A stretch of DNA of 64,000 nt, from the NCBI RefSeq assembly GCF_963675165.1, contig NC_087378.1:6992073-7056072 (forward strand). Reading direction: 5' to 3'. The notes beneath the pieces were generated by a model. It saw only the letters and a list, made by a program, of their open reading frames with translations, ran no database searches and was not told the origin of the DNA. Positions 1-62,445 of the stretch are shown here, one piece after another; the stretch's first letter is position 1; each line of letters starts with the position of its first letter. Both the position numbers and the translations under genes were made by a program. The stretch comes from Halichondria panicea (Eukaryota > Porifera > Demospongiae > Suberitida > Halichondriidae).

Positions 1-30250
<30,250 letters not shown>

Positions 30251-34074: not shown

Positions 34075-36391
34075 ATGGCCGCATTGAGAAGAATAGGGGT
34101 ACCTTTTCTGCGTGGATTTCTTCGTCCTGGGACATCTACTTCTCTACCTAGGCCGTCTCTGGACTCGGGAGCAGCTGTGGTTCAATGTAGAAGGTCATCA
34201 GATGAGCCATACGCCCCAGAGTCCCCTCCAGTGCCAGGTACGTACTAGGTACAGGGTCAGGCTTTGGGTTTTAATACTAGTACATGGAGTATTAAGTTTA
34301 TGACCTTTGTGTGATACCGAGCAAGACGTTGTTGGTCCAAAAATGTAAACGCTTTCTTTTTGAAGACTTTCTTGTGGCCTTTGTTACTGTTAATAATACG
34401 CTTTAGTTAATTAATACATAATAGCTATACTTAATTCAGGGGCGACCCAGAAGATGAATCTGGTAGAAGCCATTCGGAGTGCGATGGACATTGCTATGGA
34501 GGGGGACTCGAGTGCCTGCATATTTGGAGAGGATGTGGCTTTTGGTGGTGTGTTCAGGTGTACGGATGGGCTGAGAGACAAGTATGGTGAGACCCAAACT
34601 ATGTTGTCTTCATCACTTCTATAGAGCCGAGATCCTAATAACATGTACAACCGAGGTCAATTTTGTATCGAAAGATATGTATGAATGTTGAATTGGTTGT
34701 TACGAACGGATTTTGATCCTTTATCCCCCCTCCCCCACGCAGGTGAGGAGCGTGTGTTCAACTCCCCGTTGTGTGAGCAGGGGATCATGGGGTTCGGTAT
34801 CGGACTGGCTGTACAGGGATCCACCGCCTTAGCAGAGATCCAGTTTGCTGACTACATCCATCCAGCCTTTGATCAGGTATGCATTCCCTTTGTTGAGTAA
34901 AAGTGCCCTAAAATTCGTTTCCTCATAGCAGTCAGGTTAAGTTCCTTACGATGTACTTGTATCTCACATTACATAGTACAGCCCATTGTTTTGAAGATCA
35001 GTTTCAGTTATTTACTCCGCCAAGGAGCAGTCTTGGTAATATTATCTTCACACATTGTACCCTCTACCACAGGTGATAAATGAGGCATCTAAATATCGCT
35101 ATCGATCTGGAGGTTTGTACGACTGTGGGCGACTCACAGTGAGGGCCCCTTATGGAGCTGTGGGCCACGGTGGCCATTATCATTCTCAGAGCGTGGAGTC
35201 CATATATGCTCATGTCCCTGGCATCAAGGTAAGACCTCAAGATGTTATTGCTATGCATGTATATACGTAGGACTTAATAATTATTGCTTTTTTTATGCAT
35301 CATCAACCTTTGACTTTTAGAAATACATCTGTAATGTGATGCCTCTGCATTTGTAGTTTTGTACACCCTAAATTTAAATCTGTGTTCTTTTGTCTCTAGG
35401 TTGTGATCCCCCGTGGCCCTAGTCAGGCAAAAGGTCTTCTTCTCTCCTCCATACGAGACAACAATCCGGTGTTCTTCTTTGAGCCCAAGGCCCTCTACAG
35501 AGCAGCCATGGAGGAGGTGCCTCAGGATGACTACACTCTGCCACTCTCATCTGCTGAGGTTATGCAAGAAGGTCAGTAGTACAGTACAGTACAGTGAAGA
35601 AGGAGAGTATGATATTTTGGATTAAGTGCGAATCGGTCTTGCTATTTTAAGTTCTGTCATTACCTAGATTCAAGGTATGGTACTTGAAAATAGACGCTTT
35701 GATTGCTCTTGTGATTCACTCTCTCTCCATTGCAGGCAAAGATGTGACTGTAGTTGGGTATGGTGCTCAGATCCAGGTGCTGCGTAAGGCATGTGACATG
35801 GCACAGGAGGAGTTGGGGGTGTCTTGTGAGCTCATTGACCTCAGGACAATCATCCCTTGGGACGTCGACACTGTTGCTGAGGTGGGTGTAGAGTGTTTTG
35901 ACAACTACATGTGTAATTATTATAAATATGTGGGGTTGGTAGTAATGAGGTATGTAGACAGGATATCTGTCATAATGATCTCAGCACTGAGGTATTATAA
36001 TGGCATTCACTGTGTACATGTTTCCCACTGTAGTCTGTCTGCAAGACTGGTCGAATGGTCATTGCACATGAAGCCCAACTCACTGCTGGGTTTGCCAGTG
36101 AAGTATCATCTACAATACAGGTAATATTCCTGCCAAACGATAAATGAAGCCCCTGTATAGTGGCTCTTCACAGGAGGCTAGATGTATATTGTCTGTCAGT
36201 CCCTGTCATTTTTTGGTTAGAGATAATCTTCTGGTATTTTATTTTTGCAGGAAGAGTGTTTCTTGAATCTAGAGGCCCCTATTCAGAGAGTGTGCGGGTG
36301 GGACACTCCTTTCCCTCTCATTTTTGAACCGTTTTATTTGCCAGATAAGTTCAGATGCTTTGAAGCAATTAAAAGAGTTGTGAACTATTAA
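34075..36391 (+). CDS. BCKDHB: 2-oxoisovalerate dehydrogenase E1 subunit beta, mitochondrial
   Basis: Eight exons (34075-34237, 34440-34586, 34743-34876, 35073-35228, 35400-35571, 35736-35881, 36034-36120, 36251-36391) give 381 residues, close to the usual length of about 390. The N-terminus is Arg/Leu/Ser-rich with few acids, as in a mitochondrial transit peptide. Family blocks are [86 protein letters not shown] and [13 protein letters not shown]. It is the beta chain of the E1 (thiamine diphosphate) component of the branched-chain alpha-ketoacid dehydrogenase complex, which oxidatively decarboxylates keto acids from Leu, Ile and Val. The start MAALRR was preferred over an upstream in-frame Met because it gives a compact transit peptide. 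No break seen. Confidence 0.95.
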
Positions 36392-44230: not shown

Positions 44231-44974
44231 CTATGACAAAGGTGTAAATACAGAACGCACAATTAAAAGTTGAGCACCATAATAAGTCACCATGACGACA
44301 ATGTCCGCTATAGGTGTTTCAAACCTCCACTTCTTCAAAGCCAGCACCAGATCAGATATGTAGAACAAACAAGCCCCAACAGCAGCTGTCAGATTGGGAG
44401 TGCTGGGCGTCAACTGAGCTCGAGTTATTGCAGACCATAGCATGGTGGATGTCAGTACACAGTAGAGCAGTGCTAACACGGACATTTTCCAGCTAAACTT
44501 TGGGTAGACATAGCAATAGAAAATTGCAGACACAAGACCTATAGCGAGTGCTGTGATGATCTGCTGCTGCTCAAGACCTGTGGAGATCCCCAACAACAGC
44601 TGTGCCCCATTGAAAAAGTAGGCGTATATACCTTGTGTCATAGAGAATGAAACGATACCCAGCAAAAACATACTGTCAAAGACGAGATACATGTCACCGA
44701 GAAGAGAGAACAAAATGCCCCAAAAAAGGCACCACAGATTATTGAGCGTATTTCCAGGTAATAGAGGTCCCAAACCATTAAAAATGTTGAAAGCGCTGTA
44801 GCCAATCAATCCAAGGAGAGTTGCAATGGGGGAACATTTGAGCACCAACTTGAGCAACTTGCTGTTGCTGTGTAATCCCAGCAGTAGGTAGGTCACTGAC
44901 ATAGCAATGTAGACATATTGAATGAGGATAAAATTCTCTGTGGCTTTTCTTTCTTGGTCCATTGCGAGGTCCAT
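44231..44974 (-). CDS. TMEM86A: TMEM86-like lysoplasmalogenase (YhhN family)
   Basis: A single exon of 247 codons encoding about eight hydrophobic helices. TMEM86/YhhN hallmarks are the GD motif in FSLLGDMYLVF, the following FLLGIVSFSMTQGIYAYFF, and ACLFYISDLVLALKKW near the C-terminus. The family hydrolyses the vinyl ether bond of lysoplasmalogens in ER or plasma membranes. The length matches the usual 230-250. The start MDLAMDQE gives the full family N-terminus; MDQERKA four codons later is an alternative. It diverges from the selenoprotein gene, with 280 bp between starts. Being intronless in an intron-rich region, it might derive from a retrocopy; the decayed copy downstream is related. 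The A versus B paralog choice is not certain. Confidence 0.85.
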   Translation of the reverse strand: MDLAMDQERKATENFILIQYVYIAMSVTYLLLGLHSNSKLLKLVLKCSPIATLLGLIGYSAFNIFNGLGPLLPGNTLNNLWCLFWGILFSLLGDMYLVFDSMFLLGIVSFSMTQGIYAYFFNGAQLLLGISTGLEQQQIITALAIGLVSAIFYCYVYPKFSWKMSVLALLYCVLTSTMLWSAITRAQLTPSTPNLTAAVGACLFYISDLVLALKKWRFETPIADIVVMVTYYGAQLLIVRSVFTPLS

Positions 44975-45254
44975 TGTATGCTACAGGGCTCCTGTAGTGT
45001 GTGCACAATGTGAACATGTGTATATGATGCTTGTTTGCACACATTTATACTGGATTTTGGCACTTGTACTTGTACTTGTATAAATCCTCACCTTTTCACT
45101 CTTCTGTTGTGGATCAAAATTAATTAATATCTACATGTACATGTGTATGTCTCTGATAATTAATCTAGCTAGCCCCTCCCATTTTAACCAACTGCTATCC
45201 ATTGATTCTGCCACTGTGATCTGTTTGCTGCATGCTAGCAAGCAGAAGCTAGCT
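44975..45254. promoter_or_regulatory. Divergent TMEM86-like / selenoprotein intergenic region
   Basis: 280 bp between opposing start codons; both promoters are expected here. It has AT-rich stretches and repeated ACATGTACATGT-like short motifs. Nothing specific is assigned. Confidence 0.4.
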
Positions 45255-46564
45255 ATGACTGACACCCCTGCTAATCTGGTGGACTGGTACCAGTCTGTAG
45301 TCAAGGAGAATGAAGCAACCTTCATTGTCTTTTACAGGGGAATCTGGTGACCTTGGTGCAAGGTGAGTTGAGTGTTGTGTCAGCTAGCTATCTATATCTA
45401 TGGTCAGACCATAGATTTTAGCTACCTAGATTTTAGCTACCTGCATTCTAATCATGCTTTTTACAGTCTATTATTTTTGTGTGACTGTTTGTTGAGTGCG
45501 CATTGTGGAGTATTAACTCTTCCTATGGTCTCAGGAGCACCTTGTCTGGTTCAACGAACTGGTCGAGGAGCTTCTTGCAAAGAAGGTGGGGGTGTACGGG
45601 GTGTGTGCTCAACCTCCCAGCGAGGTGGACCAGATAGTGATGGAGAACAACATTAAATTCAAGGTGAAACTTCTGAAATCGATCGTTATATAAACAGCAA
45701 CACCCTATTAATATAAAATGGCAATTGCTACCAAATAAATAAAAAGCTATAAATATAACCATAGCTCAAAGATTCCCCCCTCCCATGCACAATGCATGCA
45801 TACCCAGTGCTGGTCTGATGTGGATCTGACTCTGTCTAACTACCTGAAGGAGCAGGGTGTGATTGAGGTATGCATCACTGGCGGCCCGGGGACTGAGAAG
45901 GAGGATCTTTATTTCAAGATACGAGAGTACCCCCATGGCATGAATCAGCCTGCCATCCTACTGGTTAAACCAGATGGGAGTGTGGTGTACTCATGGGCCA
46001 GTCGACCCGTCAAGGTCAGCTAATTGCATTGTGATATCGTAATAAGATACAGGATCTACATTTTTGAAATGTCATACTAGTTCCTTGGTATCCTTGAAAG
46101 AGTTTATCACCTTGGTATGCTAAGCTGCTACATTGCATGTACCAATCTAGTGTCTTCAGGCTCGCATGGGGCCAGGGTTGTTTTAGTGTCATGCAGTAGT
46201 ATTCCTTTCCAATTCACCTGTACCTTATGGCTATGTACTTCCTCTTAATTACTGCCCTATAGCTCAAGTATCTAGAATTATACGATATAGGCACATATAC
46301 ATGCAAGCCGAGGGTGAGCTGCCTGTAAGACTCTCGTGCTAGGCTACCTGACCGTACGTGTAATTAATAAAATATGATAGAGACTGTATAATTAACTATT
46401 ATGACACTTATTATTTACACGCTAACAGCTTGTTACTTTGACAATGAACATGATATTACATGGTTATTCCATACAATCCCCTCACCCTGCAGGAGAACAA
46501 AGGCGGAGCTACTGGCAGACCAGAACCAAAAGACGTCTGGGCCCAAGTCAAGGACAAGATTTAG
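45255..46564 (+). CDS. Peroxiredoxin-like (AhpC/TSA fold) selenoprotein, UxxC redox motif
   Basis: Four exons (45255-45362, 45535-45663, 45808-46014, 46493-46564; all phase 0) give 171 residues if the in-frame TGA at 45348-45350 is read as selenocysteine. The motif is F-I-V-F-Y-R-G-I-W-(TGA)-P-W-C-K. Prx-like proteins have FYRGxWCPxC here, so Sec replaces the peroxidatic-type Cys. Coding clearly resumes: EHLVWFNELVEELLAKK, VYGVCAQPP, KCWSDVDLTLSNYL, YPHGMNQPAILLVKPDGSVVYSW. These match the thioredoxin-fold core and the PxxLLVDxDGxVxYxW hairpin of the family. A type II SECIS lies about 70 nt after the TAG (46562-46564). The likely role is thiol-dependent peroxide or disulfide reduction, with substrate unknown. 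The start MTDTPANL follows an upstream region without family similarity; an in-frame Met at 45135 also exists. Confidence 0.88.
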
Positions 46565-46624
46565 CAGAACTGACAATAAGGCATTATGCTGTACATGTAT
46601 GTATAATAGTAGCTGTTGTGTCTG

Positions 46625-46690
46625 TGTAGCTCATGAAGAGAGTGTGACCTAACCAGTCTCGCTGGAGTGCACTTTCTGAGGTTTAATATA
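46625..46690 (+). promoter_or_regulatory. SECIS element (type II) in the 3' UTR of the Prx-like selenoprotein
   Basis: The conserved SECIS core is present in order: ATGA at 46633-46636, unpaired AA at 46651-46652, and GA at 46678-46679. After ATGA, AGAGAGTGTG (46637-46646) pairs over 10 bp with TGCACTTTCT (46668-46677). Beyond the AA a small second stem, CCAG/CTGG with loop TCTCG (46653-46665), forms, which is the type II shape. The lower helix around TAGCTC/GGTTTA is weak. SECIS elements recruit SBP2 and EFsec to recode UGA. Confidence 0.85.
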
Positions 46691-46828
46691 TCATATCAAC
46701 AGTTTTAAATAAATAACTTATCGATGACTAATACATGTATGTCACAAAATCACTGAAGAGATACAATGCACCGAAACTGGATGAGCTACTGTACAAGCAA
46801 GAGAGCGATGAAGTTATATTATAGCATA

Positions 46829-60727: not shown

Positions 60728-60830
60728 GGCCTGAAATCGAAGGCCAGCTAGTACAGTGTAGTCTTCTATGAATAAACTGCTTCTTTGATCTTTGATTGAA
60801 TGATCCTTTACCCATTAGTAACTAGAAGTC
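60728..60830. promoter_or_regulatory. 103-bp divergent interval between ACOT13 copy B and UGT
   Basis: Only 103 bp separate opposing start codons, so the two 5' UTRs and core promoters are compressed or overlap. Contains a CTTTGATCTTTGATTG direct repeat. No factor assigned. Confidence 0.45.
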
Positions 60831-62445
60831 ATGGAGACTCTAAGCACAGTGATTCTACTTATAATTCTCTCAGTCTGCTCCAGTGTGCAGTGTCAAGAAC
60901 ATCTATTCAACACTAGGAGAACTCTGTCCATTCTAATCATCTCCAATCCATTTCCTGGGCACCTAATGCCTCCATCTATTCTTGGTGAGGAACTAGTGAG
61001 AAGAGGGCACAATGTAACTCTATGCACAACACCTATGTCTGGCTCTAATCTGGCCCAAAAACTGACTGATAATGCAAGAATGAAATTCATCAATGCTGGC
61101 GATGGTTATTTAACGTACTATGATTTTCAGAGAGTTTTTGCAGCCGCAGGAATTGGGAACAGTACAGAAAGTGATCGATGGAAAGTGTTTAACATTCACC
61201 CGGACACTTCAATCAGGATGGGAAAGTTTCTAGATCGAGACAATCTAACAGACTATGATCTAATTGTTGCTACGGAGAAGCTTGCACCTGTGTTGGCTTG
61301 TCTAAGCAAAAGATGGAATATTTCAGGTATTGTTTTGGGAACTACTCATCAGCATCAACTTCATCTACTGCCCGAGTGGTCTTTTCCACCTTTCTATGCA
61401 AACAAACGAGGAAGGATACGCATTTCTGATGATATGACATTCAGTGAGAGAATGCGAGCATTTCTATTTGTTGAATACAACAGACTTTACAGTCGATTCT
61501 ACAAAAGTCGCTACGAATTTGTGTGTTCAGATCCAGTGGTTGATTACTCCTACATGAATGGTTACCTTGGTGTTCGTGCTCCCCACATTATTCCAACAGC
61601 TATTGGTTTTGAGTACCCAAGAACGTTATCTCCTCTCACTCACTATGTTGGTCCACTGCTCAGTAAGCAAAAGAAAGAATTATCAAGTGACATGCGTAAG
61701 TGGTTAGACTCCAAACCGCGAGCAGGTGTGATAATGATCAGTATGGGCTCGTTAGCTCACCTTACACGAGAACAAGGCAAAATAATTGTAGATGCTATCA
61801 GTTCAACCAATTACAGTGTGGTGTGGAGTTTACGGGAACAAAACCGTGACATTTTAGAAGGACTTGCAATAGACAGTGACCGATTTTTCTTATCACCTTG
61901 GCTACCACAGGTAGCAGTGCTCAACCACTCTGCTATTGGGTTGGCTATTCTACACGGTGGAATGAATGGAGTACATGAAGCCATTGCTTATGGAGTGCCA
62001 ATCATTGTGATTCCGTTCTGGAACGATCAAGGGGACGTTGGTGCCAGACTGCAACACAGTGGAGCTGGAATTCAAATCCTTCGACACCACCTGTCAACTG
62101 GTACTATTCTGGCTGCTATTCTGCAAATACAAAGAGGTGAGAAAGTTGCTTTTAGCTTTGTTTTTATTGTTTCCTTTGTACCCAGGTAGCTTGGATGCTG
62201 GCCTGGCTCGCCTGCAGAGAATATTCGTAAGAGCAGGAGGAGTGGAGAGAGCTGCTGATTTGGTGGAGCACTACTGGGAGGTTGGCTACTCTCATCTTGT
62301 CCCCTCTTATGCTACATACAACTGGAGCTGGGTGCAGTACTACAATACTGATGTCAAGGCATTGCTCATATTATCTGTGGTGTTATCAATTATTTTTGTG
62401 AATAGAATAGTTTTTTGTTCAACTTCAAAACAAAAACACAATTAA
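60831..62445 (+). CDS. UDP-glycosyltransferase (UGT family 1), ER membrane
   Basis: Two exons (60831-62136, 62186-62445) encode 521 residues, the normal UGT length. It has an N-terminal signal peptide (STVILLIILSVCSSVQCQ), a catalytic His region NPFPGHLMPP, and the C-terminal donor-binding signature (WLPQVAVLNHSAIGLAIL, HGGMNGVHEAIAYGVPIIVI, PFWNDQGDVGARL). A C-terminal transmembrane helix (LLILSVVLSIIFVNRIVF) and short Lys/His-rich cytosolic tail follow, as in ER-retained UGTs. The reaction transfers a sugar from a UDP-sugar to small lipophilic acceptors; the acceptor and sugar cannot be read from sequence. The signature HGG is preceded by IL instead of the more usual THGG. Confidence 0.9.

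Follow-up and report, generated by a model that had tools for sequence, protein, structure and literature searches.

A probable selenoprotein gene in an animal genome and its likely place in the sponge AphC.like family

A selenoprotein family found in sponges only, AphC.like, was described by Jiang et al. in 2012 (PMC3473315). According to the parts of that paper available to us, its members have a Trx-like fold, a resemblance to AhpC around the selenocysteine (Sec), and a SECIS element. There are three genes in Amphimedon queenslandica (a, b and c), two of them in tandem, two in Oscarella carmela and a partial one in Suberites domuncula; among the six animals compared by Jiang et al. the family was confined to Amphimedon, with the two other sponges as its only further hosts. 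The Amphimedon genes have 2, 2 and 5 coding exons (five in Aq.AphC.like_c) and all three have SECIS elements with a GUGA core, and it was suggested that the SECIS core follows the organism more than the family (PMC3473315). The family is repeated in PMC3828610; in the portions of the literature at hand, this later mention and the one primary description were the accounts recognised, and no further description was.

Proteins with a similar active site are published from farther afield. Bacterial peroxiredoxin (Prx)-like selenoproteins with a UxxC motif have been in print since 2005 (PMC1088965), and the accessible tables of PMC9312934 and PMC13188914 contain them also. In an alga, Thalassiosira oceanica, AhpC_b is described as a UxxC AhpC-TSA selenoprotein with prokaryotic Cys relatives (available text of PMC7539508); by that description it resembles the protein studied here, the difference being its algal host.

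We analysed a window of 64 kb (64,000 nt; C2:6992073-7056072 in its genome) that very probably contains a working selenoprotein gene of an animal. Its family is most likely sponge AphC.like, and its UGA codon 32 would be decoded as Sec via a SECIS in the 3′ UTR. An earlier sequence-only reading of this DNA had proposed a peroxiredoxin-like UxxC selenoprotein with its own SECIS. That proposal is supported by the TGA, introns and SECIS of a paralogue, by Cys at the site in relatives, and by a covariance model match. Its hint that the family was undescribed is probably wrong, given the 2012 description as far as it is available (PMC3473315).

Gene structure and the in-frame TGA

Rebuilt from the window DNA, the gene occupies 45255-46564 (+), with four coding exons comprising 171 codons and a TAG. 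Its parts and the elements that follow it are listed here in window positions.

45255..45362, + strand: coding exon 1, encoding MTDTPANLVDWYQSVVKENEATFIVFYRGIW-U-PWCK; the Sec TGA is codon 32 and the donor is GTGAGT
45348..45350, + strand: in-frame TGA (Sec, U32), codon 32 of the frame from 45255; the paralogue has a TGA at the equivalent place
45535..45663, + strand: coding exon 2, AG..GT boundaries, phase 0; intron position common to the paralogue
45808..46014, + strand: coding exon 3, AG..GT boundaries, phase 0; intron position common to the paralogue
46493..46564, + strand: coding exon 4 with the TAG stop; intron position common to the paralogue
46633..46679, + strand: SECIS core of type II (ATGA, 10-bp helix, AA, apical CCAGU/GCUGG helix, GA), from folding, energy scan and covariance model
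46708..46713, + strand: AATAAA polyadenylation-type signal 3′ of the SECIS, read in the window letters

Every intron is GT..AG and in phase 0, and the joined frame contains TGA once only, at codon 32, within FYRGIW-U-PWC. The sequence-only reading had placed the TGA at the first Cys of an FYRGxWCPxC-type motif, giving (Sec)-P-W-C, and had followed the coding region through three more phase-0 exons; both observations were confirmed, the frame remaining intact through exons 2-4. Its expectation that conventional annotation would truncate the protein at residue 31 also agrees with the rebuilt frame, in which 31 residues precede the TGA. Ordinary annotation cuts such genes at the TGA, and we regard this one as a real and easily mis-annotated gene of a kind already known. 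With two exon junctions much farther than 55 nt 3′ of the UGA, the mRNA should be open to nonsense-mediated decay at low selenium, a fate known for other selenoprotein mRNAs under selenium shortage.

Since a GT overlaps the TGA (CTG|GTGACC) in both the window gene and the paralogue, one could propose an alternative splice that removes the TGA and yields an ordinary protein. A donor there would be in phase 2, out of frame with the phase-0 exon 2, and the overlapping GT follows from the codons TGG TGA CC in any case; we give this explanation practically no credence and retain the TGA as a Sec codon.

The gene stands head to head with a YhhN-family open frame (44234-44980 (-); PF07947, E 3e-32), which lies ~275 nt from its ATG.

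The paralogue and its tandem copies

A search of the same genome with the window protein found 11 places, all on contig C2, of which four are the window gene and seven fall in a cluster at 7.064-7.077 Mb. Outside the window, ~25 kb downstream of the window gene, this cluster includes a paralogue (C2:7063764-7067809) with five coding exons and 239 codons. Exon 1 of the window gene is homologous to the paralogue exon C2:7063934-7064097, where TGA is codon 73, in YYRGVW-U-PYC, at the place equivalent to that of the window gene. The proteins are identical at 70 of 173 aligned positions (40%), and the three introns 3′ of the Sec exon fall in identical alignment columns, all in phase 0. The TGA of the window gene stands at a site that is Cys or Sec in its relatives, and coding similarity extends both 5′ and 3′ of it.

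Over 171 codons the two genes differ by 234 nucleotides, 111 of them at third positions (dN 0.55, dS 2.2 by NG86), and 56 of the 139 codons after the TGA encode an identical residue in both; from these values we conclude that selection acts on the protein encoded 3′ of the TGA. The only Cys/Sec positions common to both paralogues are U32 and C35. Both animal proteins also have the C-terminal block QP..YxWA..P...NxGGAxxRPxP. The paralogue has a C-terminal tail ending in CSLCNIL, whose CxxC, absent from the window protein, could be a second redox site.

Four tandem copies of paralogue exons 2-4, lacking the Sec exon, follow 3′ of the paralogue (C2:7068352-7078624), each of them broken or truncated in blastn alignments. 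Their SECIS elements are near-identical in three copies, and the fourth is a weaker match (22.6 bits with the covariance model R1, see below). The Sec exon of the paralogue is the only one seen in the 30 kb that were read.

The SECIS element and selenoprotein genes elsewhere in the genome

The same genome has a tRNA-Sec with anticodon TCA and exons of SepSecS, and is thereby equipped with host Sec machinery. The window also contains a frame for a secretin-type receptor (PF00002, 7tm_2), which fits an animal. With 131 Mb in 39 contigs, the size of the genome and its chromosome-scale contigs make a sponge likely; of 77 cathepsin-type matches, the four whose frames were read lack an active site of silicatein type. 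Several further selenoprotein-type genes were seen. Two SELENOL-like genes with UxxU lie at C9:5963006-5963503(-) and C16:5265987-5266481(-), scoring 104 and 87 bits, each with a SECIS shortly downstream; a third, with UGPC, lies at C15:5548136-5548618(+) (68 bits), and its downstream SECIS was found by Rfam SECIS_1; all three scores are below the NCBIfam cut-off of 120. An exon with GUVMC at C3:7041424-7041606(-) is SELENOU-like; neither the energy scan nor R1 found a SECIS at that locus. A SECIS at C4:7065201-7065267(-) (Rfam SECIS_1, 33.6 bits) lies behind an exon with Sec that, from its sequence, is presumably of a GPX-like gene. Because the SELENOL-, SELENOU- and GPX-like genes lie elsewhere, the window gene would represent one more family in an animal genome that uses Sec.

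Downstream of the window gene, the 3′ UTR carries a SECIS of the RUGA..AA..GA form. The sequence-only reading had described a canonical ATGA/AA/GA type II element with a 10-bp core helix; the core is present and the helix can form, but the distance from the TAG to the ATGA is 68 nt and not the claimed 70. The inner 41 nt can fold into the 10-bp helix, with ACCUAA as a loop and CCAGU/GCUGG as an apical helix of 5 bp, and this conformation, at -14.0 kcal/mol, is 0.7 kcal/mol higher than the free minimum (-14.7). Folded without constraint, 46600-46700 does not exceed its shuffles in stability (z -0.01). In the paralogue the SECIS core begins 75 nt 3′ of the stop and is 47 nt long, equal to that of the window; it too has AA and then a CAGU-type apical helix, and both cores are AUGA.

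Whether the element scores as a SECIS was assessed in three ways, with a divided outcome. Rfam SECIS_1 has no match to it, and no Rfam family matched anywhere in the window at gathering scores. The energy scan, in its first two versions (free fold or a single constraint), did not report it; the third version, which keeps the loop unpaired as far as the AA, reports it at -14.5 kcal/mol in the 64-kb window. Twenty dinucleotide shuffles of the window yielded 14 SECIS-like elements at or below -14 kcal/mol on both strands (0.7 per window), which by arithmetic is a chance of ~0.1% per given 200 nt of one strand. The scan also reports a site lower in energy, with two overlapping hits at 34724-34788 (-).

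The third scan was modified after the suboptimal folds of the target were known, and a covariance model built without the window is the cleaner test. This model, R1, combines the SECIS elements of five other genes of the same genome (the paralogue, three SELENOL-like and one GPX-like), with the window element left out; these five members were the basis of a manual structure assignment, made when the window element was already known. With filters off, R1 ranks 46633-46679 first of the 8 matches listed in the 64-kb window (21.8 bits, E 0.006), whereas with default filters over the same 64 kb the element is missed. The runner-up, at 4616-4661 (+), has 15.1 bits (E 0.33) and is probably a chance match. 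In 8 loci of the same genome R1 gives 9 matches, its own five members and, with one match apiece, the four partial copies in tandem.

These results bear on the view that the locus is a pseudogene, or a Cys gene in which TGC/TGT has mutated to TGA, and that its SECIS is a chance fold. The broken partial copies of the paralogue nearby lend it some colour. The same TGA, however, stands in a paralogue whose protein has diverged by 60%, selection between the two genes is purifying, the splice sites and frame of the window gene are intact, and its SECIS was found by a model built without it; we consider this view very improbable. For a functional selenoprotein gene, the Sec signals are evident in gene anatomy and conservation, and we infer from them that the UGA is decoded.

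Domain, relatives and family placement

The 171-residue product is predicted to have an AhpC-TSA/thioredoxin-type domain: in Pfam the window protein matches AhpC-TSA (PF00578) above the cut-off, at E 7.2e-12, and Redoxin at E 3.5e-7. Among solved structures, the thiol peroxidase/bacterioferritin comigratory protein 2cx3 is the closest in sequence (E 6.5e-5); in the alignment to it C35 falls on the Cys of SPVC and U32 on its Ser; we assume that this Cys is the peroxidatic one. Classical peroxiredoxins have T/SxxC, with the peroxidatic Cys at the second position, and the window protein has UPWC. The earlier label 'peroxiredoxin-like' holds for the domain (PF00578, E 7e-12) and calls for caution at the active site, where C35 and not U32 falls on the SPVC Cys of 2cx3.

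SELENOL, a selenoprotein of aquatic animals, is one family to weigh. Like the window protein it is Prx-like, with a UxxU or UxxC centre, and the window protein does match NCBIfam SelL_rel_redox weakly (E 0.0015, 18.2 bits against the cut-off of 120). Its motif is UPWC and not UxxU, and the three SELENOL-like genes on C9, C16 and C15, with other flanks, are separate and better matches in the same genome, though all below the cut-off; the 6 matches of a genome search for SELENOL-like genes include neither the window gene nor the paralogue. That the gene is a divergent SELENOL is accordingly quite improbable. PF13911 (SELENOU/PRXL2) has no match to the window protein at E ≤ 1 and has five places elsewhere in the genome. 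The earlier judgement that the protein is neither SELENOL nor SELENOU is borne out.

Prokaryotes have PF00578 Prx-like proteins with the same YRGxWCPxC-type core and AhpC-TSA domain. As 35 distinct relatives we took the best-match open frames of 43 plasmid and prokaryote loci, after dropping 8 exact duplicates; they score 37-62 bits by tblastn. Cys occupies both the Sec column and position +3 in 35/35, a count that partly reflects selection, since 16 loci were chosen partly by YRG[IV]WC patterns, and those from the genomes behind chosen loci and from the phylum of the Flavobacteriaceae locus were picked up by a profile that has C in the Sec column; 3 of 18 matches from that phylum are not among the relatives read. 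The prokaryotic proteins differ from the animal pair in being Cys forms and in the C-terminal block, which is absent from the printed stretches of the 35.

With the two-gene alignment, matches were obtained in 8 of the 11 genomes behind the chosen loci (E ≤ 1e-6). By phylum, 18 of 395 genomes matched at 1e-9 for that of a Flavobacteriaceae locus (best 8.1e-13), 0 of 396 at 1e-9 for that of a Streptomyces locus, and 0 of 398 at E ≤ 1e-11 for that of a Burkholderia locus, a limit that distant relatives would need to be looser. Two plasmid records hold distant relatives, and the search of phages gave no match. The prokaryote searches therefore point to distant relatives only, with no donor for horizontal transfer in the sample. 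In viral contigs 12 stretches fit a pattern, and none proved to be a relative.

The shared U32 and C35 suggest a thioredoxin-like selenenylsulfide centre. Once the SECIS had directed decoding of UGA codon 32 as Sec, U32 would act as the thioredoxin-type nucleophile and attack a peroxide or disulfide, C35 would resolve it as a selenenylsulfide, and the centre may then be reduced by thioredoxin/thioredoxin reductase. With such a mechanism the product would be a thioredoxin-like selenol oxidoreductase or peroxidase, not a classical TxxC peroxiredoxin.

Among described families, sponge AphC.like is the most likely home of the window gene, a placement drawn from the published description and not from sequence comparison. 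The window protein has, in Sec form, an AhpC-like region around the Sec in a Trx-type domain, and it shares with AphC.like, as far as the source describes it, the Trx-like fold, the SECIS and the occurrence of tandem members; five coding exons are found in one Amphimedon member and in the paralogue here. The differences are the AUGA core of both genes, against GUGA in the three Amphimedon genes, which we did not count as defining, and the four coding exons of the window gene (2, 2 and 5 in Amphimedon).

These differences, and a comparison made by description in place of the AphC.like sequences, would favour an animal family other than the published one. In such a family Sec would occupy the thioredoxin-type position of a peroxiredoxin-like fold, with the ex-peroxidatic Cys as resolving partner, and the genome here would hold a pair of intact genes and, beside one of the pair, a local array of broken copies. 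The five coding exons of the paralogue, as in Aq.AphC.like_c, the agreement in described features and, in the available account, the restriction of AphC.like to Amphimedon and two other sponges (PMC3473315) argue against it, and we hold a separate family to be unlikely. Taken as an AphC.like member, the window gene and its paralogue would add a further genome in support of a poorly studied animal selenoprotein family, and, provided that this is the same family, the AUGA cores of the pair extend the 2012 report of GUGA in three Amphimedon members.

Elsewhere in the window, a UDP-glucuronosyltransferase-type open frame lies at 60822-62186 (+) (PF00201, E 1.7e-40), and a (TG)n/(CA)n microsatellite of ~500 bases, at roughly 23870-24410, appears as CV/HT repeats in open frames.
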